In this document: one piece after another, positions 28,974-59,733 of the stretch
Numbering within the stretch: position 1 is the first letter of the stretch
How the letters are laid out: every line of letters starts with the position of its first letter
NCBI GenBank assembly: GCA_016214985.1
Contig: JACRMM010000044.1
Span: 1 to 64,000 of the forward strand
Length of the DNA: 64,000 bases
Reading direction: 5' to 3'
DNA from: Deltaproteobacteria bacterium
GTDB taxonomy: Bacteria > Desulfobacterota > Deferrisomatia > Deferrisomatales > JACRMM01
The notes under the pieces: generated by a model
Told to the model about the DNA's origin: nothing
Databases searched by the model: none
What the model saw: only the letters and a program-made list of their open reading frames with translations
Made by a program: the position numbers and the translations under genes

Positions 28974-29150
28974 GGTCTCCTGCGGAGGCTGAGGGGATCG
29001 CCGCCGGGGCCGGGGATCGCTGGAAGCGTACGGTAGACGATGGGCGACAGGGGTGTCAAGGAACCGCGGCCCTGTGGTACCGTCGCCCCCAAGAAGGTTT
29101 CCGGGGGTTCGGCGGGGTGCCGGGGCGGGGCTCCGGCGTGGGAGGATCGC

Positions 29151-30521
29151 ATGGGACAGTCGGTTCGAGTGGTCATGGCGCTGGTCGCACTGTTGGGAGC
29201 GGGGGAGGCGTCGTCGCAGTCGCCGACGCTGGACCTCGTCTACACCTCCGATCTGCGCGGGACGGTCGGGATCTGCGGCTGAGTGAAGAACCCGCTTGGC
29301 GGTCTCGCCAAGAAGTCCTACCTCGTCCGGGAGCTGCAGCGCAAGGGCCAGGCCGTCGTGCTCCTGGACGGGGGAAACCTCCTCTTCGGAAAGACCCTGC
29401 TCAAGGACCTTGAACGGCCGCAGTTGACGCTCAAGGCGAGCAAGATCGTCGAGGCCTACAATGCCATGGGCCTCGACGCCGCGGGCGTGGGTCCGATGGA
29501 CTTCGCCGACGGCCTCGAGTCGCTCCTGCGCCTGCTCAAGGACGCGCAGTTTCCGGTTGTGTGCTCGAATCTGGTGTGGAAGGACACCGGGTCTCCGGTG
29601 TTCCGCCCCCAGATCCTGGTCCAGCGGGGAGGGCTGAGCATCGGCCTGGTCGGCGCCCTGGATCCGGCCGTCAAGATCGAAGGCCTCGGGCGCGACGCTG
29701 CCAAGGTCCGCGTCCAGCCCATCTACCAGTCGGTCCGCAAGGCCGCGCGCCTGCTGCGCGGGGAGGGGGCGGACGTCGTGGTCCTGCTCTCGGCCATCGA
29801 TCCGAAGAAGATCCGGGTGCTCGCCACGAACGGGGGGGACGTGGACCTCTTTCTCGGCGGGGATCCCAAGGACAAGCTGATGATCCCCTACCGCGTCAAG
29901 AACGCTCTGGTGGCGGGTTCGAGCCAGCTCGGCAAGTACGTGGGCCACGTGGAGCTTTCCCGGGGGGCCGACGGCTCGCTGGACCTGAAGCACGCCTTCG
30001 TGCCCATGAAGCTCAATCGACCGGAGGAGCCGAAGGTCAAGCGGATCGTGGACTCGTACTACCGCGCCGTGGCGAAGTTTCGGACCGAGGGATCGCGGAT
30101 GTACGTGAAGGAGAACGAGGAGGCGGTCAACCTGGCCCACGACAAGCCGGTCTATGCGTCGGCGGAGGAGTGCAAGGCGTGCCACCGCGCCCAGTACGAC
30201 CGGTGGAGGGCGAGCCGCCACGCCCGGGCCTACGCCGCGCTTCCGGACGCAGCGCGCCGGCAGATGGAGTGCGTCGAGTGCCACGTCACTGGGTTCGGAA
30301 AGTGGGGAGGCTTCGACGGCGTGACGAAGGCTCCGGACCTGACCGGCGTTCAATGTGAGGAGTGCCACGGCCCGGGAAGCTCCCACCCGGCGACCGCAAG
30401 CGTCCGGGCCGGAGAGGCGGCCCGGTCCGTGTGCCGCAAGTGTCACACGCGTTCACGCAGCCCTGACTTCAACGCCAGGGAGTACCTCAGCCGGCTGGGG
30501 TGCGGCGGAGCCGCGCGCTGA
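29151..30521 (+). CDS. Candidate selenoprotein: UshA-like domain plus four CXXCH heme motifs; Sec encoded by TGA at 29280-29282
   Basis: ORFs ending at 29282 and starting at 29283 share one frame: signal peptide MGQSVRVVMALVALLGAGEASSQ, TLDLVYTSDLRGTVGICG-[TGA]-VKNPLGGLAKKSYLVRELQ, then CKACH, CVECH, CEECH, CRKCH. SD GGAGG at 29141-29145. Confidence 0.75.
29295..29312 (+). promoter_or_regulatory. Putative bacterial SECIS hairpin
   Basis: CTTGGCG-GTCT-CGCCAAG, 7-bp perfect stem; GGTCT begins 18 nt after the TGA. Confidence 0.65.
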
Positions 30522-30881: not shown

Positions 30882-32720
30882 ATGAAGTGCAGAGCCAAAG
30901 GTCTTTCGTTTGTGTTGTGTCTCGCCACACTGCTTCTGTCTCTGGTTGTAGCAGTAGGTCCAGCGGGCGCGAGCGTCGACGACAGCAAGTGTCTCGAGTG
31001 TCATGATCAGATCGATGCCGAGGCCTTCTCGAAGTCCGTTCACGGCAAGAACGCGTGCAATAGCTGTCATTTCGACGTTGTCGACCTGGAGGAGCATCAG
31101 AACTGCGGATCCAAGACGCAGCAGAAGGTCGAAACCTGCCATCGGTGTCACCCCGTCGAGGGCAAGGAGCACTTCTCGTCCGTGCACATGCTCAACGATA
31201 TCAAGTGCGCTGACTGCCACTCGGACATTCATGCTGTCAAGAAGTGGGACGGCAACAAGAAGAGCGTGGTCGACAAGTGCCTGGGGTGCCATGACGGCGA
31301 GGCCTATCTGGCGAGCATCCACGGGAAGGCCGTAGAAGCCGGCAACAACGACTCCGCCTCGTGTGCCGACTGCCATAACCTCCACAAGGTCAACGAAGTC
31401 GGAGACCCCAAGACGCACGCCTATCGGGAGTTCCACACCGAGATCTGCCACAAGTGCCACGCCAACACCGCGATGATGGCCAAGAACAAGGTGCCGACGA
31501 TCTCGGTGAAGACGTACGAGGAGAGCTACCACGGAAAGGTGGAGTCGCTCGGGTCGGCGTTGGCCGCCGGCTGCGCCGATTGCCACACGGCCCACTCCGT
31601 GCTGCCCGCCGCGGACCCCAAGTCGAGCGTCAACCCGGCGAACCTCGCGAAGACCTGCGGCACCTGCCACAAGGACTCCACCATCGGGTTCGCGCAGTTC
31701 CTCCCGCACGCCGACCACAAGGACAAGAAGGAGTACCCGGTCCTCTACTACACCTTCATCGCCATGACGAGCCTTCTGGTCGGCACGTTCAGCGTATTCT
31801 GGTTCCACACCCTGCTCTGGTGGCGGCGGGCCTACTGGGCCCAGACCGAGAAGCTGCGCTCCGGACACTTCGAGCTCTGCGAGGTTCAGGAGCCGCTTCG
31901 GCCCTACCGGCGGTTCACGGCCTTCGACCGCACGCTCCACGTCCTGATGATGCTGAGCTTCCTGGGCCTCGTGGTCACCGGGCTGCCGCTCAAGTTCGCG
32001 TCGGCGCCGTGGGCTCCTGCGGTCATGCACCTGCTCGGCGGCCCCCACCTCGCGGGCTTCATCCACCGGATCTGTGCGGGCATCACCTTCCTCTACTTCG
32101 GCCTGTGCGTCGGCTACGTGGTCTACTTCCTCCTCTTCAAGCCGACCGGTCAGGGGGTGCTCCAAAAACTGTTCGGCCCCGACTCCCTCTTCCCGAACCT
32201 GCGGGACCTGGAAGACATCAAGGGGATGATCGCGTGGTTCCTGGGCCGGGGGAAGGAGCCCCACTTCGACCGCTGGACCTACTGGGAGAAGTTCGACTTC
32301 CTCGCGGTCTTCTGGGGCATGTTCGCCATCGGCGGCTCGGGCGTGATGCTCTGGTTCCCGGAGCTCTTCGGGAGGTTCCTCCCAGGCTGGGTGTTCAACG
32401 TGGCCATCATCGTCCACAGCGACGAGGCGCTGCTGGCTTCGGGCTTCATCTTCACCGTGCACTTCTTCAACACGCACTTCCGACCGGGCAAGTTCCCCAT
32501 GGACATGGTGATCTTCACCGGCACGCTGCCCAAGCAGGAGCTCTGTGAGGAGCGCAAGGACTGGTGCGATCGACTGGAGAAGGCGGGCGTACTGGACGAG
32601 TATGTGGCGAAGCCGAGCCACCCCCTCTGGGACCTCGGCAGCCAGATCCTCGGCTTCACGGCGCTGAGCGTCGGGCTGATCTGTATCGGACTGGTGGCCT
32701 GGGGCTTCCTGGCCCACTGA
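30882..32720 (+). CDS. CbcL-like inner-membrane cytochrome: nine c-heme motifs fused to a b-type cytochrome domain
   Basis: Signal peptide; CLECH, CNSCH, CHRCH, CADCH, CLGCH, CADCH, CHKCH, CADCH, CGTCH; then several TMs with His residues. Confidence 0.85.
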   Translation: MKCRAKGLSFVLCLATLLLSLVVAVGPAGASVDDSKCLECHDQIDAEAFSKSVHGKNACNSCHFDVVDLEEHQNCGSKTQQKVETCHRCHPVEGKEHFSSVHMLNDIKCADCHSDIHAVKKWDGNKKSVVDKCLGCHDGEAYLASIHGKAVEAGNNDSASCADCHNLHKVNEVGDPKTHAYREFHTEICHKCHANTAMMAKNKVPTISVKTYEESYHGKVESLGSALAAGCADCHTAHSVLPAADPKSSVNPANLAKTCGTCHKDSTIGFAQFLPHADHKDKKEYPVLYYTFIAMTSLLVGTFSVFWFHTLLWWRRAYWAQTEKLRSGHFELCEVQEPLRPYRRFTAFDRTLHVLMMLSFLGLVVTGLPLKFASAPWAPAVMHLLGGPHLAGFIHRICAGITFLYFGLCVGYVVYFLLFKPTGQGVLQKLFGPDSLFPNLRDLEDIKGMIAWFLGRGKEPHFDRWTYWEKFDFLAVFWGMFAIGGSGVMLWFPELFGRFLPGWVFNVAIIVHSDEALLASGFIFTVHFFNTHFRPGKFPMDMVIFTGTLPKQELCEERKDWCDRLEKAGVLDEYVAKPSHPLWDLGSQILGFTALSVGLICIGLVAWGFLAH

Positions 32721-33322: not shown

Positions 33323-35404
33323 ATGGGTATGGCCAGTCTGATCAGCAACTTCCTCCGCCAGTTCTTCGGTGAGCTGCGCCGCATCGTGGCGAGCCACAAG
33401 AGGGCCGTCGTATCGATCTGCGTGATCTCGGCCGTCGGTTTCTGCGCATTCGTGATCGTCGGCTACAAGGTGGCAGAGACACCGTGGTTCTGCGGCAGCT
33501 GCCACAACATGGCGCCCTACATTCAGTCCTGGAAGGAGTCCAAGCACCACACCGTCTCGTGCGTGGAGTGCCACTACAAACCAGGGCTGCTCAACCACTT
33601 GAAGGGCAAGTTCACCGACGGGCAACTCTCTCTCGTCTATTTCATCACGGGCAAGGGGCCCTCGAGTCCCCATGCCGAGATTTCGGACGAGTCTTGCATT
33701 GAGTGCCACAGCAAGAAAGACATCACCAGCAGCCCACTGGACTTCAAGGGTGTCTACTTCGACCACAAGCATCACCTCGGGTCGTTGCGCAACGGCATGC
33801 AGCTGCGCTGCACGACGTGCCACTCGCAGATCGTCCAGGGCGAGCACCTCACGGTGACCGAGTCGGTGTGCTTCCAATGTCACTTCTACAAGACGGCCGA
33901 GAACGATCCGCAGCGGCTGTGCAAGACGTGCCACACCGAGGTGAAGGAGGTTCTCACCGTCAACGGCATCAAGTTCAAGCACGGCGAGTACATCGCTCGC
34001 GGGCTGGATTGCGCGGCGTGCCACCGGTTCGTCATCAAGGGCGACGGCCACGTGCCGCCCGAAAAGTGCGTCCAGTGCCACAACCAGCGCGAGATCCTCG
34101 AGACCAAGTACACGCATCGGAGCCTGCACCAGAACCACGTGACCCTCCACAAGGTGGAGTGCTACGTGTGCCACGCGACCTTCGAGCACCGCATCATCAA
34201 CGAGACGGTGGGAAATCCCCAGACCTGCGACAAGTGCCACCCCGACTCGATGCACTCTCCCCAGCAGGACCTCTACCTGGGCAAGGGCGGCATCGGCGTC
34301 GAGGGGAACCCGTTCCGGATGTTCCAGAGCCACATCGACTGCAGTGGGTGCCACGCGCGCGGCGCGCACGAGAAGGGAACCGCCCTCTCGTCCGGGTTCG
34401 ACATCAAGATCATCGAGGCCGGCTGCATCGACTGCCACGGGCAGGGCTTCGACCAGATGCTGATGAACTGGAAGCGCATCCTCGCGAAGGCTCAGGCCAG
34501 CGCGGAGGCGCTGGTCCTTCGGGCTGAGAAGGCGGTGGCCGGGGCCACGGGCGAGAAGGGGCGAAAGGCGCAGGCGCTGGTGGGCGAGGCCCGGTACAAC
34601 TACGCCTTCGTGGTGATGGCGAAGGGGATCCACAACATCGAGTACGCGCTTCGCCTGCTCAACGTCGCGGAGAAGAAGTCGGTGGACGCCATGGCCTTGG
34701 CGACCGGACAGAAGCTGCAACCCGTGCCGGATCTCAAGGTTGGGTGCGCCGAGATGTGTCACGCCAATGTCAACCAGATCAAGGTGAAGCTGGTCGACGC
34801 TGTCTTCCCGCACTCGGTGCACGTGGCTGACCAGGGGCTGGACTGCCTGGAGTGCCACACGCCCCGGTGGAACCACGGCAAGACCGTGATGAAGAACTGC
34901 AACCAGTGTCACCACGGGGAGAAGCAGCCTGCCTGCGTGAACTGCCACAAGTCGGAGACCGACCTGTACACCGGTGTGGGCGGTCTCGGCGTGCCCGATA
35001 CGCCGAGCTTCAAGATCGAGGCCGAGGTGGGGTGCAAGGACTGCCACGCCGAGGTGTTGAAAGGCGACACGTCGGACCTGGCCAAGGTCAAGGCCCGTTG
35101 TGTCGAGTGCCACGACGACAAGATGGCCGCCAAGGCCGACGAGTGGAAGGCACAAGCAGGCGTCCTGCTCAAGGGGATGGCGGAGAAGATCGCAAAGGCC
35201 CGCGACCTCGTCGAGAAGGCGGACCGGCGCGGGATCAACGTCGACCTGCTCGACAAGAAGGTCGTCACGGCCGAGAAGAACGTAACCCTCGTGCGCCAGG
35301 GCAACCCGATCCACAACCTCAAGTACGCGGGCCTCTTGATCAAGCAGGCGAACCTGCTCTTGGACGAGGTGATCGAACGCCTCAACAACAAGCTGTATGG
35401 CTGA
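33323..35404 (+). CDS. NapC/NirT-anchored multiheme cytochrome (17 CXXCH plus one CX3CH)
   Basis: N-terminal TM followed by WFCGSCHNMAPYIQSWKESKHHTVSCVECH; heme motifs counted by eye along 693 aa. Confidence 0.88.
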   Translation: MGMASLISNFLRQFFGELRRIVASHKRAVVSICVISAVGFCAFVIVGYKVAETPWFCGSCHNMAPYIQSWKESKHHTVSCVECHYKPGLLNHLKGKFTDGQLSLVYFITGKGPSSPHAEISDESCIECHSKKDITSSPLDFKGVYFDHKHHLGSLRNGMQLRCTTCHSQIVQGEHLTVTESVCFQCHFYKTAENDPQRLCKTCHTEVKEVLTVNGIKFKHGEYIARGLDCAACHRFVIKGDGHVPPEKCVQCHNQREILETKYTHRSLHQNHVTLHKVECYVCHATFEHRIINETVGNPQTCDKCHPDSMHSPQQDLYLGKGGIGVEGNPFRMFQSHIDCSGCHARGAHEKGTALSSGFDIKIIEAGCIDCHGQGFDQMLMNWKRILAKAQASAEALVLRAEKAVAGATGEKGRKAQALVGEARYNYAFVVMAKGIHNIEYALRLLNVAEKKSVDAMALATGQKLQPVPDLKVGCAEMCHANVNQIKVKLVDAVFPHSVHVADQGLDCLECHTPRWNHGKTVMKNCNQCHHGEKQPACVNCHKSETDLYTGVGGLGVPDTPSFKIEAEVGCKDCHAEVLKGDTSDLAKVKARCVECHDDKMAAKADEWKAQAGVLLKGMAEKIAKARDLVEKADRRGINVDLLDKKVVTAEKNVTLVRQGNPIHNLKYAGLLIKQANLLLDEVIERLNNKLYG

Positions 35405-40453: not shown

Positions 40454-40969
40454 TCACTTCTTGGCGGGTGCCGCGGCCGGTGCCTTGGGAGCGGCCACCT
40501 TGCCGAAGGAACTCTGGTCCACCTGCTCGGAGTGGCACAGGGAGCAGAACTTGCCGAGCTCCGAACCCTTGGCCACCTGACCCTGAAGGTACTTGTAGTT
40601 CGGATTCGAGGGGTGCGGGTTGTGGCAGCTCATGCAGCCCAGCGTGCCGTCGGCCTTGAGGAGCTCGGCCGGCACCTTCACCTTGTTGGGTTTCATCCCG
40701 ACCGGATGGGTCGCCATCAGGCTGATCGGCATGATGCCCTGGTCGTCATTGTGGCAGCCGAGGCAGAGGGCCACGTCGCCGGCCGCCTGGTTGCCGGTCG
40801 ACGGGTTCTTCTCCTTGGTCAGGGGGGCCACCGCCAGGATTCCCTTCCCTTTCGCCTTGTGGATGGAGTGACATTCCACGCAGTTCGGGTCGTGGGGGCC
40901 GTACGCGAAGGCGCCGGAAGCGGCGACTCCGAAGGCCAGGGCGGCGGCAGCAACGGCGAGCTTCCTCAT
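40454..40969 (-). CDS. Periplasmic tetraheme cytochrome c
   Basis: Signal peptide; CVECH, CLGCH, CMSCH, CSLCH. Confidence 0.9.
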   Translation of the reverse strand: MRKLAVAAAALAFGVAASGAFAYGPHDPNCVECHSIHKAKGKGILAVAPLTKEKNPSTGNQAAGDVALCLGCHNDDQGIMPISLMATHPVGMKPNKVKVPAELLKADGTLGCMSCHNPHPSNPNYKYLQGQVAKGSELGKFCSLCHSEQVDQSSFGKVAAPKAPAAAPAKK

Positions 40970-41118
40970 CTTTCTCTCCTCCTTTTAACAACGCCCGGCG
41001 CGTTTCGGACACCATGCCCGAGAAGGCCGTGCCATTCGACGAAAAGCGCGGCTACGCTAACCGAAAGCCCGAAGTCGTGTCAAGGGACCCGGATCTCCGC
41101 TTCGCCGTTTCCGGCAGC

Positions 41119-49506: not shown

Positions 49507-50202
49507 GTGTCGACCCTGAGATCCGCGAGGAGCCGCAGGAGGAGACCGGTGGTGTCGTGTAGAGACGCGGAAGCCCTCTGGGTGGCCCGTGCTGACGGAA
49601 CGCTCACAGCCGACGACGAGGAGCGGCTTCGAGCGCACTCGGCCTCCTGCGCCTCGTGCGCAGGGGTCGAGCGCGGGCTGACGCTGCTCGAGTACGCCCT
49701 GGACGGGTTCGCTGACGAAGCGCCGGAGCCGCCCCCGTACCTGAAGACCCGGATTCTCGCCCGACTGGACGAGGCGTCGACGCCTCGGCGCTGGGCCCTC
49801 GGCAGGTTTCTGACGAGCCGGCGGCTGCTCGCCGTGAGCACGGCGTGCCTGGCTTTCTTCGCGGGGCTCCTCGTGCGGGAGATCCACCGGGTCAACGAGT
49901 GGGCGCTCGGCAGCGGGTCCCGGGAGGTCGTGCTTCAGTATCAGTCCCCGACCGCGGGCCTCGTCACCCTGGCCGGAGACTTCAACGGCTGGGGGCGCGA
50001 CGGCCGCAGCGTCCGGGTCGAGCGGGAGGGAGATCGCTGGCTCTTCCGGGTGCGCGTGGAGCCCGGTCGATACCAGTATGCCTTTGTTGTGGATGGGAAA
50101 AAGTGGTTGCCCGACCCCCAGGCGCCGGGTATCATCCCGGACGGTTTCGGGGGGGTGAACTCCCTGCTGTATGTCCCAGGTCCGGACGCGGCCCGGCTGT
50201 GA
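49507..50202 (+). CDS. zf-HC2-type anti-sigma protein with TM and glycogen-binding (AMPK1-CBM/CBM48-like) C-terminus
   Basis: LRAHSASCASC zinc motif; TM LLAVSTACLAFFAGLLV; VTLAGDFNGWGRDGRSVRVEREGDRWLFRVRVEPGRYQYAFVVDGKKWLPDP. Confidence 0.8.
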   Translation: MSTLRSARSRRRRPVVSCRDAEALWVARADGTLTADDEERLRAHSASCASCAGVERGLTLLEYALDGFADEAPEPPPYLKTRILARLDEASTPRRWALGRFLTSRRLLAVSTACLAFFAGLLVREIHRVNEWALGSGSREVVLQYQSPTAGLVTLAGDFNGWGRDGRSVRVEREGDRWLFRVRVEPGRYQYAFVVDGKKWLPDPQAPGIIPDGFGGVNSLLYVPGPDAARL

Positions 50203-50257
50203 TGGATCTGAGTCCAGAGGCGTGTCTGGTTCGATCACCGCGGACGAGGACGTCGGA

Positions 50258-51841
50258 ATGCTAGGGTTGCTCCGGTTCGGTACCGACGGGAGGGGGGGCA
50301 GGTCTCTGCATCGGGCCGGCCTTTCGTTCGTTATGGCGCTCGCCCTGGCGCTGCCGGCGCGCGCCGCGATCATCAACAGCAAGCACGACTTCGTCAACGA
50401 CGGGTTCACAGGCGGAGGCGCCTGCGCGGCGTGCCACGTGCCCCACAATGCCAACACCGCGGCCGGCTACCTCTATCCGCGGCCGGGCAACACGGTCGAT
50501 TTCTCCACCGCCCCGGCCCGGCTGTGCATGGACTGTCACAAGTGGCCGGCCCCCACCACGGCGCCCACGCCGCCCGCCAACGCTGGCTTCCCCGCGACCT
50601 GGCCGGTCGGCCACGAGCCTCCCAACCCGACGGCCAAACACGCCCTCGCCTCGGGCTATGCGGAGTGCGGCCGGTGCCACAAGCACAAGGACAGCTTCAA
50701 GCCGGACACCAACCCCTGCCTGGACTGCCATCAGGTCGTGGCCGGGTTTACGTGGAGCGGTGGCGAGGTGGCCAACTACGACGACGGCTATGATCCGGAG
50801 GTGGCGAAGTTTTTCGCCGATCTCGGAGGCGCCCGGGGTGCTACCCCACCGACCATTCGGAGCCAGCACAACCTCCGGTACAACCCGGCCGGTGACTTGA
50901 GAACCGCTGCGGAAAACGAGTGCCGCAAGTGCCACGGCCTCCAGCACCCCAACGACACGGTGTTCCTCGTAGACGCTCGCAAGGTGGCCTACTCCAAGGA
51001 GTCGACGACCACGGGCGACTTCTCGGCCTACGAGCCCCTCTGTCTGTCGTGCCACGACGGGGTGGCGACGACGACCCCGTCGGATCAGAGGTTCAACGTG
51101 GCCGGGTACACGATCCCGGCAAACCAGGTGGCGCCGACGTCGGTGACGAACCCGGCGGTCCTGCAGGCGAGCGCGCCGTGGGTGGTGCCGGCCGTGCCTC
51201 CGTGGTCGCCCCTCCCGACTCCGGCGGTTCCGTACTTCGCCAATTACAAATTGAACGGCCACGGCGCGCCTCTCTCGCTCATCTCCGGTGGCCAGATGGC
51301 CAAGACGTGCCTGGCGGGCGGGCCCCAGGAGGGCTGCCACACGGCGCACGGCTCGACCTCGCGGTTCCTGCTCGCCCAGGGGCCCTTCTCCGCGGATCTC
51401 GTCACGGCCTCCCAGGTCGCGGTGGGGGTCTGCTACGGGTGCCACCCCGTCGCGGACTTGAGCACGACGCTGATGGCGTCGCGGTTTCACGCGTGGATGG
51501 GCGACAACACGGTGCTCCACGACGACGGCCGCCACGGTGACACGGCCGGCGACGGCGTGGCGCCGTGGTCGGCGTACGGCGTGGCCAACATGAACATCAC
51601 GGCCGCGAGGACTCCGTCGGCGGTCTTGCCCTTCTACGGTGACCCTGCCGTGTCGCCGGGCAACGAGATCCACCGGCGCACGTACCTGACGACCCCCCTG
51701 ACGACGAACCACTGGCTGCACTGCCTGACCTGCCACGATCCCCACGGCACCGGGCCGATCACGGAGCCCGGGATGCTCCGCCTGTTCGACAGCGTGATGG
51801 ACTACACCTCGCCCTTGTGCGGGCAGTGCCACGTGAAGTGA
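50258..51841 (+). CDS. Secreted multiheme cytochrome c (nine CXXCH plus one CX8CH)
   Basis: Signal peptide; CAACH, CMDCH, CGRCH, CLDCH, CRKCH, CLSCH, CYGCH, CLTCH, CGQCH. Confidence 0.87.
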   Translation: MLGLLRFGTDGRGGRSLHRAGLSFVMALALALPARAAIINSKHDFVNDGFTGGGACAACHVPHNANTAAGYLYPRPGNTVDFSTAPARLCMDCHKWPAPTTAPTPPANAGFPATWPVGHEPPNPTAKHALASGYAECGRCHKHKDSFKPDTNPCLDCHQVVAGFTWSGGEVANYDDGYDPEVAKFFADLGGARGATPPTIRSQHNLRYNPAGDLRTAAENECRKCHGLQHPNDTVFLVDARKVAYSKESTTTGDFSAYEPLCLSCHDGVATTTPSDQRFNVAGYTIPANQVAPTSVTNPAVLQASAPWVVPAVPPWSPLPTPAVPYFANYKLNGHGAPLSLISGGQMAKTCLAGGPQEGCHTAHGSTSRFLLAQGPFSADLVTASQVAVGVCYGCHPVADLSTTLMASRFHAWMGDNTVLHDDGRHGDTAGDGVAPWSAYGVANMNITAARTPSAVLPFYGDPAVSPGNEIHRRTYLTTPLTTNHWLHCLTCHDPHGTGPITEPGMLRLFDSVMDYTSPLCGQCHVK

Positions 51842-51867: not shown

Positions 51868-52392
51868 ATGACTGTTCGATTCCGCCGCACTTCCCTGTTC
51901 CTCGGCCTGCTGGCCCTCCTTGCCGTCGGCTCCGCCCCGGGGACGGGGATCGCAGCGGCCGCCGGGGTCGGTGACCCTCTTCCCGCCATCTCCCTCGTGG
52001 ACGCGTCCACCGAGAAGCCCGTGCAGGTGGCGGAGGCGCTGAAAGGGGCGGTGGGGGTCCTCGTGTACATGCAGACCTCCTGCGCCGCCTGCCGCAAGGA
52101 GCTGACCGCGCTCAAGGACCTGCAGGGAAAGTACCCGAAGCTCAAGGTCGTGGCGGTCAGCGTCGACGCGGGCGGGCCGGAGCGGGCCGTAAGCTACAAG
52201 AAGAACTTCGGCTTCGAGTTCCCGTTTCTCCAGGACCCGGAGTTCAAGACGCCCGAGCTCTTCGGGTTCTCCTTCACCCCCGGCATGGTCCTGGTGGGCA
52301 AGGACGGCAACGTGGCCTTTATCAAGGGGGGCTTCCGGCCGGGGGACGAGGCGGAGATCGAGGCGAAGATCATGGCGCTGACCGCCCAGTGA
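51868..52392 (+). CDS. Redoxin/TlpA-like exported thioredoxin-fold protein
   Basis: VYMQTSCAACRKELTALKDLQGKYPKLKVVAVSVD...FSFTPGMVLVGKDG. Confidence 0.87.
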   Translation: MTVRFRRTSLFLGLLALLAVGSAPGTGIAAAAGVGDPLPAISLVDASTEKPVQVAEALKGAVGVLVYMQTSCAACRKELTALKDLQGKYPKLKVVAVSVDAGGPERAVSYKKNFGFEFPFLQDPEFKTPELFGFSFTPGMVLVGKDGNVAFIKGGFRPGDEAEIEAKIMALTAQ

Positions 52393-52423
52393 CACGGGAA
52401 CCGCGGGGAAGGGGCCAAGGCCG

Positions 52424-53272
52424 ATGAACAGTGCTGTTGCGCGAAACCATGCTCTTCGTGGCGCTGCCCTCGCCGTCGGCTTGGCCCTTGCCGCCGCGGC
52501 CTGGGGGGCGTCCGAACCGCCCGTGCCCGACGATCGCCTCCTCTACCGGGACCTCTCGGGCACGGTCCTGGACGAGTCCGGAAAGCCCCTGGCCGGAGTG
52601 CCGGTCAGCCTCCTCTACGAGACCGCGGTCACGGACGACAAGGGCGCGTTTCGCTTCTCCAAGGTCCCGATCAACCACACGGCGCAGGTGAGCCTGCGGG
52701 TGCGCAGCCGGGAGGGCTTCATCATCGGCTGCATCGTCGTCGACGTCCCGGTCCGGTTCTACCCCCTGGCGACCGCGGTCGAGGGCCGGGTCGACGTGCA
52801 GATCGTCGACCCGGGGAGCGACGAGGTCGCCACCCTTCGGCCGAGACCCGTGGCCGCGAGCCAACTGAACCTGTACTGCGGCGAGTGCCACGGCAAGAAC
52901 CCCTGCCTCGAGACTACCTCCTACCGCGACGTGATCGAGAGCGGCAAGGACCTGCGCGGCATCGTCGTCGCCGAGGACCAGATCGAAAGCTTCAAGAAGA
53001 AGTTGGTCCAGCAGGGGCTCCGCAAGGAGACCTATCAGAAGATCCGGTACCAGGACAGTCACCCCGACGGGATGAACATGGAGGTCATGCCGAAGCTCCA
53101 ATTGCCCGAGTACCAGGGGCGCTACCGGAAGCCGACGGATCTCCGCCTCCTCGATCAGAAGGTCGTGAGCTGCGACACCTGTCACACGCGGCACATGCCG
53201 ACCGAGCAGCGCCAGTACGTCGTGATGCCGTTTGAGCGAACGAACGCCCTCTGTTACCAATGTCACCTCTGA
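52424..53272 (+). CDS. Triheme cytochrome with N-terminal carboxypeptidase-regulatory-like domain
   Basis: GTVLDESGKPLAGVPVSLLYETAVTDDKGAFRFSKVP, then CGECH, CDTCH, CYQCH. Confidence 0.82.
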   Translation: MNSAVARNHALRGAALAVGLALAAAAWGASEPPVPDDRLLYRDLSGTVLDESGKPLAGVPVSLLYETAVTDDKGAFRFSKVPINHTAQVSLRVRSREGFIIGCIVVDVPVRFYPLATAVEGRVDVQIVDPGSDEVATLRPRPVAASQLNLYCGECHGKNPCLETTSYRDVIESGKDLRGIVVAEDQIESFKKKLVQQGLRKETYQKIRYQDSHPDGMNMEVMPKLQLPEYQGRYRKPTDLRLLDQKVVSCDTCHTRHMPTEQRQYVVMPFERTNALCYQCHL

Positions 53273-54632: not shown

Positions 54633-54713
54633 GCAGGAGGCGAAGCCCCGCGCAGGCCAGGGAGGACCGACCTGGTTGCGCAGGGGCACGAGCCGTCGCG
54701 GAGAGCGCAACGT

Positions 54714-57700
54714 ATGACTTCTCAGACCCGGTTGCAGAAGCGTCTGGCACGGGGTGCCGTCGTCGGGGCCAGTGTCGCTCTTGCCCTGTCGCTGGTCCTC
54801 GGCCCGGGAACCGCGCGGGCCGATCACTCCCTGAACCAGGGATGCATCATCTGCCACTCGCTGCGGTCGACCTCCGTCGTGCTGGGCACGCGCAACATCC
54901 TCCAGACCGAGATCGCCGCCAACCTGTACCAGAGCTACTGGTACTGCGCTGCTGTTACGTTCAACGGCACCACTGATCGCCTCGACTGCTCCTACTGCCA
55001 CGGCAAGCCCCTCGGTGACCCGGCGGGAGAGATCGCGCTCTTCAGTTCTGCGATGACGACGACCACGTGGCCGGTGACCGGCTCCGCGCACCCGGTCGAC
55101 GTGGAGGCTGCGACGGTGAGCTTCAAGGACGCCACCAAGGGTCCCATGAAGCGGATCCTGTGCAACGACTGCCACGGCCTCGATGTGGCCCCGAAGAACG
55201 CCTGCGATAAGACCCAGGTGGGCGGCGGCTACCCGAACCACGCCCCGAGCAGCGTGCCTGCCAACGCGGCGGGGACCGGGGCCAACCGGCGGCCGGGCCA
55301 CGTCGCCGAGACGTGGAAGTACCTTTCCGGCGGGCCGCTCCTCCCGGTGGACCTCGGTCCCACGGGGCCGGATGCCGACTGGACCGGCGGCGCCTTGAAC
55401 GACATGCTGTGCTTCAAGTGCCACAAGCCGCCGGCGGCGGGCGGCATCGCGTCGGACATCAAGACCGTGTACGACCGCCCCGGGGGCGGCCACAACCTCC
55501 AGGCGGTGGGCACGCTGGCGATGAAGAAGCTGCCCTGCTACGACTGTCACGACCCCCACGCCTCGGTGGACAAGGGGGGGTTTCCCGGCAACCGGGCGCT
55601 GATCATCAGCGGGGCCGACGAGGTCAACGGGTTCACGAACCCGCAGCGAAAGACGAAGTTCAAGCCGACGGCCGTCTTCACTGGAGCCACGAGCGGAGAC
55701 CGCGTGGTCTGCACCGGCTGCCACGGCCAGGCCGGCATCACGACCGAGGGGGTGGTGGCCACGACCCTCGATGCGGCCAACGTGAAGTTCGCCTTCCACG
55801 CCGGCGTGCACGACACCGCCCGGACCTCGGGCAACTGCCTCCAGGCCTACAACGGGTGCCACCAGAGCCCCCACAACACCGACATCTACCGTTGCCTCGA
55901 CTGCCACAGCCCCTCGGCTGGGGGCACGAACGCGAAGCTTCTCCCCGTGGAGCACGTGGGAGACGAGTTCGCGGCCCTGGCGCCCGCGGCCGACGGCTCC
56001 GTGAAGCTGGCCACGGTGCCCTCGGCGCCGCCGGGCCGGGTCGCCGGACAGATCAGCAGCCGCCACGACATCGTCTACGACGACACGAAGGACATGACAT
56101 CGGTCGCGAACAACGGCTGCCTGGGGTGTCACAACGTGCCGAAGGCGCAGACCGGGAAGATCCTGGCCGATCTGGACGGGGCTTTCTACGGGTCGACCTT
56201 CAGCTCCCGGGAGGCTCTCGTCGCGTACGATCCCTTCTGCCTCTCCTGCCACGACAACACCGGCACGTCCTTCGGCACGATGCCCGCGCCCGAGGTGTAC
56301 CGGTACTGGGACACGGCAGGGCACGGCCGGCCCTCGGGCAACTACCGGATCGCGGCCTATGGTGCCGCGACCGGCAACGTGGCGGCGAAGACCCCCTGCC
56401 TCGAGTGTCACGTCTACCACGGATCCACTGCGTACAAGCTCCTGCCGGGTGACCAGCAGACGACCCTCTACGGCTCGGATACGGTGAAGGGCGGCCGTGT
56501 GGTGAAGGGCTTCGGCTACCCGGCGCCCACGACGATCGGCACGGACTTCTCGATCGGCGGCGTGACCGACAGCACCTACATCGACTACGCCGACTACACC
56601 GATCCTCTGAGCAACTCCCGGCTCCCCACGGGGACGACCTACAAGTTCCGCTCGCGGTTCGTATCCAACTACACGGAGGCTTGGTCCACCTACTCCCAGA
56701 GCAGCCTCACGGCGCCCAAGGGGATTCCCACCTACTACGGGACCTCCGGCGACATGCGGTCGCCCAACACCAACTCGACGAAGGAGGTCGCCTGCGGCAA
56801 GACGGCGACGAACTCCCCGAGCATCGGCTTCTGCAACGTCTGCCACTTCTACAAGGACTCGACGAACGGCACAGCCGGCACGGCCGGTTGGGTCTACACC
56901 CACGAAGACAACTGCGGCGGCGATCCGGCGTGCGACGCGAAGAGCTTGAAGGCCCAGAAGAACTTCTTCAAAGACTGTGCGGAGTGCCACGACCCGCATG
57001 GCTCGGGAACCGACGGCGGAACGACCGAGACCTATGCCAACCTCGCCATGGTCCGAGGCAAATTGCTGGCCAGCGCGACGAACGACGACACGCAGGCCGC
57101 GGACAAGAACTACTGGCAGCCGGTGGTGTTCACGAGCCCCACCGGCACCACGGCCAGTTATGACCCCTCGAACAGCGGCAAGGACAGCTCCAAGGCGATC
57201 TGCGTGGTCTGCCACACCGGCCCGGGCACCAGCGGCACCAACTGCAGCACCGCGAACGCGCTCAACGTCGATCACAACTACCGGGCGGCGTCCGGGGTCC
57301 CGAACCATTACGAGGGGAAGAACTGCACCCTGTGCCACGCGCACGGGAAGAAGGGCAACCTCACGAACTCTTCCTACACGGGCTTCGGCCTCTGGGGCAC
57401 TTGCACGGGCTGCCACGGCCTGCCTCCGATAGCGCGGCGCGACCCGCCCCTCCTCGGTTTCGCAGACTGCGCTGCGCTCGCCGCTTCCCAGCGGGAGGAG
57501 CGGTGCGAGAACTACCCCGGCGGCGGTGGAGCCCACTGGGCGCACATGAGCGTCATCATGGACCCGGATCTGGCGGGCGTGGACGCGAACCTCGAGCAGA
57601 AGTGCTCGCCGTGCCACGGCCCCGATCCAGGAGCGGCCGAGTGGCATCTGGAGTCCACGTCGATCTCTGGCTACTCGACCTTCGACTTCGAGGCGAATTT

Positions 57701-58931
57701 CAGTGCTTGGCCCACGACACCCGGCAACTCGTTCCAAAACAAGGTCGACCTCGTGGACTCCTACGGGAACCTGCGGGCGGGCAGCACCGTGCAGACGGGC
57801 CGTTACACCGGCGGCGCGAGCGGCTCGGTCCAGACCATCCAGGACACGGCCCATGCGAGCGGGGCCGCCAACGCCAAGGGAGGCGCTCCGCAGGAGTGCT
57901 CGAACATCAACTGCCACGGCGCCGCGGCGCCTTACAACGCCACGCCTCCGAGCGGTACAGGGGCCGACGACGGCCGGTACTACCCGGGCGCTACCATGCC
58001 GACGGTCAGCAGCTATCCCAAGAAGATGCGCCTGATCTGGGAGTACGAAGCGACCAACACTGCCGCGCCTCTGCGCCCCTGGGTCAGCGACCTCGCCTGC
58101 GCGGGGTGCCACGGTTCGGCCCCAGCCATGACCATTCCGGGGACCTCCCACCCGGCCGACGTGAACCCGCTCGTCACGATCCGGAACCTCGCCAACAACG
58201 GCGACCTCTACACGAGCGCCTTGGGGGTGCAGGGGGTGACGGGGAGCTACTTCGGCACGGTGAGCGGGTACGGCCGGGGCGGCCACGGCGACCGGGCCAT
58301 CCAGTCCGAGGATCCGTTCGTCGACTCGGCGCCCGGCTACGTGACGCCCTCGCACTGCACCGACTGCCACGACGACGCGGCCAAGCACTTCGACCCCACG
58401 GTTCGGACCTCGACGAATCTCGTGACGCGGTACCGCCTCAAGGCGTCGCCGGGGGTTCTGGAGAGCACGTCGACGAACGGCGTGTGCAACACCTGCCACC
58501 CACGTGACGACTACCCGGGGGAAAACGCGAGCGGGAAGGCAAAGAACCACCACCGGTCCTACTACTACTACGATGGCGCGACGCGCAAAGACGTGATCCC
58601 GGCGGCCGGGACGAAGGTGATGCTCGCGCCGCCGGCCGGCTACTCAGCGACCGGGGCGGACTGGAACGTCGACTTCTTCGTGAACTTCTGGGAGAGTGGA
58701 ACCGATAACCCGACGCAGACGTTCGGTGCTCCCCAGGCCGTGCTCCCCCTCGAGCAGTACGTGGCCGGCGGCACGTCCACCAACAAGGTGCTGTGCGTCA
58801 CCTGTCACAACCCGCACGGCACAGACCTGTTCACCTACGATCTGGGCGGCACGCACCGATCGATTCCCGACAACAACATGCTGCGCTTGCGGGATCAGGA
58901 CAACACCCTGTGCGTGGCGTGCCATCCCTGA
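54714..58931 (+). CDS. Giant secreted multiheme cytochrome c (1405 aa; 21 CXXCH plus CX6CH and CX4CH)
   Basis: Signal peptide; heme motifs counted by eye; CX4CH...CXXCH arrangement as in Geobacter-type cytochromes; terminal CVTCHNPHG...MLRLRDQDNTLCVACHP. Confidence 0.88.
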   Translation: MTSQTRLQKRLARGAVVGASVALALSLVLGPGTARADHSLNQGCIICHSLRSTSVVLGTRNILQTEIAANLYQSYWYCAAVTFNGTTDRLDCSYCHGKPLGDPAGEIALFSSAMTTTTWPVTGSAHPVDVEAATVSFKDATKGPMKRILCNDCHGLDVAPKNACDKTQVGGGYPNHAPSSVPANAAGTGANRRPGHVAETWKYLSGGPLLPVDLGPTGPDADWTGGALNDMLCFKCHKPPAAGGIASDIKTVYDRPGGGHNLQAVGTLAMKKLPCYDCHDPHASVDKGGFPGNRALIISGADEVNGFTNPQRKTKFKPTAVFTGATSGDRVVCTGCHGQAGITTEGVVATTLDAANVKFAFHAGVHDTARTSGNCLQAYNGCHQSPHNTDIYRCLDCHSPSAGGTNAKLLPVEHVGDEFAALAPAADGSVKLATVPSAPPGRVAGQISSRHDIVYDDTKDMTSVANNGCLGCHNVPKAQTGKILADLDGAFYGSTFSSREALVAYDPFCLSCHDNTGTSFGTMPAPEVYRYWDTAGHGRPSGNYRIAAYGAATGNVAAKTPCLECHVYHGSTAYKLLPGDQQTTLYGSDTVKGGRVVKGFGYPAPTTIGTDFSIGGVTDSTYIDYADYTDPLSNSRLPTGTTYKFRSRFVSNYTEAWSTYSQSSLTAPKGIPTYYGTSGDMRSPNTNSTKEVACGKTATNSPSIGFCNVCHFYKDSTNGTAGTAGWVYTHEDNCGGDPACDAKSLKAQKNFFKDCAECHDPHGSGTDGGTTETYANLAMVRGKLLASATNDDTQAADKNYWQPVVFTSPTGTTASYDPSNSGKDSSKAICVVCHTGPGTSGTNCSTANALNVDHNYRAASGVPNHYEGKNCTLCHAHGKKGNLTNSSYTGFGLWGTCTGCHGLPPIARRDPPLLGFADCAALAASQREERCENYPGGGGAHWAHMSVIMDPDLAGVDANLEQKCSPCHGPDPGAAEWHLESTSISGYSTFDFEANFSAWPTTPGNSFQNKVDLVDSYGNLRAGSTVQTGRYTGGASGSVQTIQDTAHASGAANAKGGAPQECSNINCHGAAAPYNATPPSGTGADDGRYYPGATMPTVSSYPKKMRLIWEYEATNTAAPLRPWVSDLACAGCHGSAPAMTIPGTSHPADVNPLVTIRNLANNGDLYTSALGVQGVTGSYFGTVSGYGRGGHGDRAIQSEDPFVDSAPGYVTPSHCTDCHDDAAKHFDPTVRTSTNLVTRYRLKASPGVLESTSTNGVCNTCHPRDDYPGENASGKAKNHHRSYYYYDGATRKDVIPAAGTKVMLAPPAGYSATGADWNVDFFVNFWESGTDNPTQTFGAPQAVLPLEQYVAGGTSTNKVLCVTCHNPHGTDLFTYDLGGTHRSIPDNNMLRLRDQDNTLCVACHP

Positions 58932-58968
58932 GCGGGAACGCGGCGGCCGCGCCGCGCCCGGAGGATCC

Positions 58969-59733
58969 ATGACGAAAGTGCAGATGCTCCTGGCCGCGGC
59001 GGTGCTCGCCGCGGCTGCCCCTGCCGGTGCCCAAAATCATCCGGCCAGCACCTCGGAGTGCGAGAGCTGCCACACCTACGGCAAGGGCCCGGCCGACGCG
59101 CCCAAGGTGATCCCGCGGCCGCCCTCGTGGCTCGAACGCCTCACCGGCAAGAGGTCCTTCCAGGGGCACGCCTCGGTGTCGTGCGCCGGAACCGTCTCGC
59201 CCGAGGGCCGGCTGACCGGCTGCCACCGCATCGAGAACGGCGGGCGAAGCTTCCTCGTTCTGAACCTCTCGCAGCGCCCGGCCGACGAGCTCTGCGGTGC
59301 GTGCCACGCCGAGCAGCGAACGCCGGGCAGCCACCATCCGAGCTACAAGGCGGACAAGAACCGCGACGGCGTGCCCGAGACGATCGTGCGGCCCGCGCCG
59401 ACCCAACAGGTCTACTCGACCTACCTCCCGTCGCTCCGGCCGGAGCCCTTGAAGTCTCACCCGGACTCCTTGTCCTTCCTGGCCCGTGAAGACGGCAGCC
59501 GGATCCTCCAGTCGGTGCTGCCCCTCGAGACGGTGGTGGAGACCGTGGACGGGAAGCCGGTCACCGAGCCGAACGTCGTGACCTGCGACACGTGCCACAA
59601 CCCCCACTTCGGGTACCTCGTCGAAGTGGGAAAGGACGAGCCGCTCGATCCCGAGAAGGTGGCCCGCACCAAGGGAGACGCGCTGCTTCGCCTGCGCGAC
59701 GTCAACAACCAGCTGTGCGTGGCGTGCCACTGA
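58969..59733 (+). CDS. Secreted multiheme cytochrome c (four CXXCH plus one CX12CH)
   Basis: SD GGAGG, signal peptide; CESCH, CAGTVSPEGRLTGCH, CGACH, CDTCH, CVACH as the final residues. Confidence 0.85.
   Translation: MTKVQMLLAAAVLAAAAPAGAQNHPASTSECESCHTYGKGPADAPKVIPRPPSWLERLTGKRSFQGHASVSCAGTVSPEGRLTGCHRIENGGRSFLVLNLSQRPADELCGACHAEQRTPGSHHPSYKADKNRDGVPETIVRPAPTQQVYSTYLPSLRPEPLKSHPDSLSFLAREDGSRILQSVLPLETVVETVDGKPVTEPNVVTCDTCHNPHFGYLVEVGKDEPLDPEKVARTKGDALLRLRDVNNQLCVACH

Follow-up and report, generated by a model that had tools for sequence, protein, structure and literature searches.

The 64,000-nucleotide stretch of DNA analysed here (the window) encodes a 456-residue protein that we assign, with very high confidence in the combined claim, to the UshA-like selenoproteins, with an in-frame TGA at 29280-29282 read as selenocysteine (Sec). 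The Sec reading itself is nearly certain. The window gene is an additional member of a catalogued selenoprotein family, not a new kind. The protein combines an N-terminal domain related to 5'-nucleotidases and SoxB with a C-terminal tetrahaem part, and we suggest below that it may act in periplasmic redox chemistry.

Gene structure and family assignment

The features of the gene and its two cytochrome neighbours, all on the + strand, are as follows.

29140-29145, + strand: Shine-Dalgarno-like GGGAGG, 5 nt 5' of the ATG at 29151 (from the sequence)
29151-30521, + strand: complete selenoprotein gene for a 456-residue product, the TGA at 29280-29282 encoding Sec (NF041198, 333.7 bits, cut-off 275)
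29151-29219, + strand: probable signal peptide, about residues 1-23 (read by eye from the sequence)
29226-30080, + strand: UshA/SoxB-like domain with eroded metal ligands (profile comparison and ligand alignment; boundaries approximate)
29280-29282, + strand: TGA as Sec44 in Cys42-Gly43-Sec44 (column TGA in 29 of 30, Cys in one)
29295-29312, + strand: putative bSECIS hairpin CUUGGCG-GUCU-CGCCAAG, loop 19 nt after the UGA (codon conservation; model of PMC13188914)
30171-30446, + strand: tetrahaem cytochrome c554-like part (Pfam PF13435, 59.7 bits; 1bvb)
30882-32720, + strand: neighbouring 612-residue membrane cytochrome with nine CXXCH motifs and a hydrophobic C-terminal half (homologue near a family member in genome G019)
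33323-35404, + strand: neighbouring 693-residue NapC/NrfH-like cytochrome with 17 CXXCH motifs (homologues adjoin family members in 13 other genomes)

Positions 29151-30518 form a single frame whose sole internal stop is the TGA at 29280-29282, followed by a terminal TGA at 30519-30521. Re-reading of 29151-30521 agreed with the original prediction that the open reading frames on both sides of 29280-29282 are one frame split by a single TGA, and re-translation returned the proposed length and Sec44. The upstream Shine-Dalgarno sequence, the signal-peptide-like start and the four CXXCH motifs that had been described are all present in the sequence; the CXXCH sites start at 30171, 30270, 30354 and 30432, corresponding to residues 341, 374, 402 and 428. 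The TGA lies in the context YTSDLRGTVGICG-U-VKNPLGGLAKK, which contains a CxU motif (CGU at residues 42-44). Because standard gene calling breaks the gene at this TGA, its annotation depends on reading the codon correctly.

The protein matched the NCBIfam model NF041198 (UshA-like (seleno)protein, UshA_like_PCGU) well above its cut-off. UshA-like selenoproteins (COG0737, motif CxU) have been listed previously (PMC2398784 (2008), PMC9312934, PMC13188914), and these listings, together with the model match, substantiate the earlier suspicion that the family was already known. Like the NF041198 family, the window protein has Cys-Gly-Sec in its N-terminal domain, a haem part at its C-terminus and a score above the cut-off. 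It differs from the PCGU form in carrying ICGU, a variant also found in its closest relative (L028), while L029 has MCGU. The ExtKL multihaem selenoprotein (NF040886) and UshA-like selenoprotein family 2 (NF049981) are likewise selenoproteins with haem sites or a UshA-like domain, but the window protein scored far below the cut-off of either model (28.7 vs 250 and 22.3 vs 140, respectively).

The UshA-like selenoprotein family is common in this phylum. Matches above the NF041198 cut-off were found in 58 of the 297 genomes sampled, and most family members among the matches listed for this sample contain an in-frame TGA. The host genome itself carries a second UshA-like gene (L024/L060, G000:C49:21537-23012), which encodes 516 residues with four CXXCH motifs and has a PCGU motif with an in-frame TGA; its NF041198 score of 273.6 is slightly below the cut-off of 275.

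Decoding of the TGA as selenocysteine

A search of 99 related genomes returned matches in 79 of them. We aligned 30 proteins, comprising the window protein, its same-genome paralogue L024 and 28 homologues from other genomes, 27 of them from this search and one (L022) from a separate contig scan, where it was the single relative found. Exactly one in-frame TGA, always in the same column, was present in 29 of the 30, which goes beyond what chance would give, and Cys42 was also conserved in 29. This alignment had been proposed as a check for a conserved Cys/Sec column, which it revealed. The accompanying expectation of Cys at the TGA position held in part: a Cys form (CGC) does exist, in L049 alone, but Sec predominates in this column among the related genomes that were compared.

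The genome of L049 (G088:C29:3331-4584) has selA, and the gene lacks the GGC-GGT-CTN codon pattern described below. Two Sec-containing UshA-like relatives, L053 (G041:C1:956275-957078) and L054 (G061:C44:24785-25675), are without any CXXCH motif, and in L053 the first Cys is replaced by Ser (SGU).

These data bear on two other explanations of the TGA. It could be a genuine stop, which would make the gene a pseudogene, or an assembly error in a Cys gene that was misread; the frame is indeed broken in the standard code. We consider this very improbable: the same column holds TGA in many independent genomes, which excludes a sequencing error, and conservation at both the protein and the codon level continues downstream of the TGA. 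Equally remote is the possibility that the locus makes two products, one a short peptide that is exported and the other a downstream protein translated by reinitiation at GTG 29283. This GTG, immediately 3' of the TGA, does open a 412-residue frame, but it occurs at that position only in the window gene among the 30 aligned genes, which means that independent initiation at this site is no general property of the family, and the downstream product would have no signal peptide despite its four haem c sites.

Decoding of the TGA as Sec calls on dedicated machinery, and a genome search for selA, selB, selC and selD had been suggested. It identified selA (581.1 bits), selB (323.7 bits), a tRNA-Sec (74.3 bits; reported by ARAGORN as tRNA-SeC, anticodon tca) and a pair of selD genes (374.6 and 354.7 bits), so that the genome is equipped for selenoprotein synthesis. 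Both selD genes (L018, G000:C2:83753-84679; L019, G000:C17:152925-153842) have an in-frame TGA in GUAAKI, the catalytic Cys/Sec position of SelD, which makes SelD a selenoprotein in its own right in this genome, in two copies. Among 34 chosen genomes, selA was present in 32, including the Cys-form genome, and missing from two TGA-form genomes (91% and 81% complete); its co-occurrence was not discriminating.

The hairpin located 3' of the TGA has a perfect 7-bp stem and a predicted energy of -11.4 kcal/mol, and it agrees with the bacterial SECIS model (PMC13188914) in its loop (GUCU), stem length (7 bp) and distance (19 nt). Under the same rule, stems of 7 bp or more that contain no G-U pair were found 3' of 11 of the 1206 TGA triplets in the window, and the hairpin by itself is therefore an event of about 1%. 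Comparison with synonymous shuffles gave no signal, as the hairpin energy was not lower in the window gene. Codon choice was tested after this result, with each gene's own codon use as the expectation. In the Sec genes, the synonymous codons 3' of the TGA are fixed as GGC-GGT-CTN-GCC, the core of the bacterial SECIS hairpin. Gly50 is encoded by GGC in 26 of 29 Sec genes (9.6 expected) and Ala53 by GCC or GCT in 28 of 28 (16.4 expected). For Gly51, GGT was used in 25 of 29 Sec genes (4.9 expected, P 1e-17) and, after thinning of close relatives, in 17 of 20 (3.1 expected, P 6.5e-13), although these P values assume independent sequences and the sequences are not fully independent. It is codon choice that provides the strong evidence for the putative SECIS element. 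Taken together, the column (Sec in 29 of 30, Cys in one), the Sec machinery of the genome and a bSECIS with codon conservation uphold the central claim of the original prediction, that the TGA encodes Sec.

Eroded metal site, haem part and possible function

In profile comparisons against solved structures, the N-terminal domain matched 5'-nucleotidases and SoxB; the C-terminal part matched cytochrome c554. This C-terminal part resembles cytochrome c554 (1bvb) and Pfam PF13435 in haem-site spacing and flanking residues, but here it is fused to a UshA-like selenoprotein domain. Although the N-terminal domain is related by sequence profile to UshA 5'-nucleotidases and SoxB, in the window protein the metal ligands are replaced, and Sec and four haems are added. 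We took eight ligand positions from the motifs NDxH, DAGD, GNHE, LSHLG and GGHSH, which supply the metal ligands in UshA. Only D34 is kept in the window protein, the others being R36, N76, P115, M116, A215, D238 and K240. Across the 30 aligned proteins the ligand residue is present, by position, in 22, 0, 3, 1, 1, 5, 6 and 0, compared with 29 each for Sec and Cys42; selection has preserved Cys-Gly-Sec rather than the metal site. A structure prediction of the window protein with L022 reached a mean pLDDT of 44 and was left unused.

The relationship to 5'-nucleotidases and SoxB would also accommodate a protein that contains Sec yet works as a metal-dependent phosphatase or SoxB-like hydrolase, with Sec and the haems merely tuning its activity. 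We regard this as unlikely, since the ligands match at one of eight positions and the SoxB score is 72.8 against a curated cut-off of 550; the UshA cut-off was not reached either (30.5 vs 600). The pseudogene, two-gene and nucleotidase readings were all rejected.

In 13 other genomes (G001, G002, G004, G005, G006, G007, G008, G009, G010, G019, G023, G060 and G091), a homologue of the NapC/NrfH-like neighbour was located at most 725 bp from a UshA-like gene, and in G019 homologues of both neighbouring cytochromes are in one cluster with a family member. The two closest orthologues (G001:C72 and G002:C135) have the ProC-YggS-Maf side in common with the window gene and are without a multihaem neighbour in the fetched stretches, which makes the association more a feature of the family at large than of the window gene's own branch. 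Further multihaem frames in the window are found on the + strand at 50159-51838 (nine CXXCH), 52382-53269 (three), 54633-58928 (21) and 58684-59730 (four), and on the - strand at 40457-40984 (four). The 1432-residue frame with 21 CXXCH motifs matched no NCBIfam model at E 1e-20.

In the mechanism that we propose, SelB and tRNA-Sec decode TGA 29280-29282 as selenocysteine, with the 29295-29312 hairpin as the guiding element. The signal peptide would direct export, and in the periplasm the protein would receive haem c at each of its four CXXCH motifs. The UshA-like domain, having lost the di-metal site of the phosphatases, presents the Cys-Gly-Sec pair instead. Quinol would supply electrons, by way of the NapC/NrfH-like multihaem cytochrome and the tetrahaem domain, to the Cys-Gly-Sec centre, which would reduce or bind a substrate. 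Our inference is that the protein works in periplasmic redox chemistry with electrons drawn from quinol, rather than as a nucleotidase. The family may be a quinol-linked periplasmic selenium reductase, in which a worn phosphatase fold holds Cys-Gly-Sec and is haem-wired to a dedicated NapC/NrfH-like partner; we consider both this electron flow and the reductase role possible rather than probable.

A limited literature search found no open-library paper combining selenocysteine, multiheme and nucleotidase, which agrees with the function of the family being unstudied. The eroded ligands with a kept Cys-Gly-Sec, together with the recurrent NapC/NrfH-like neighbour, hint at function and are the less documented clue. 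Sec and haems, occurring together with lost metal ligands and this recurrent neighbour, lead to a testable idea for an uncharacterised selenoprotein family.
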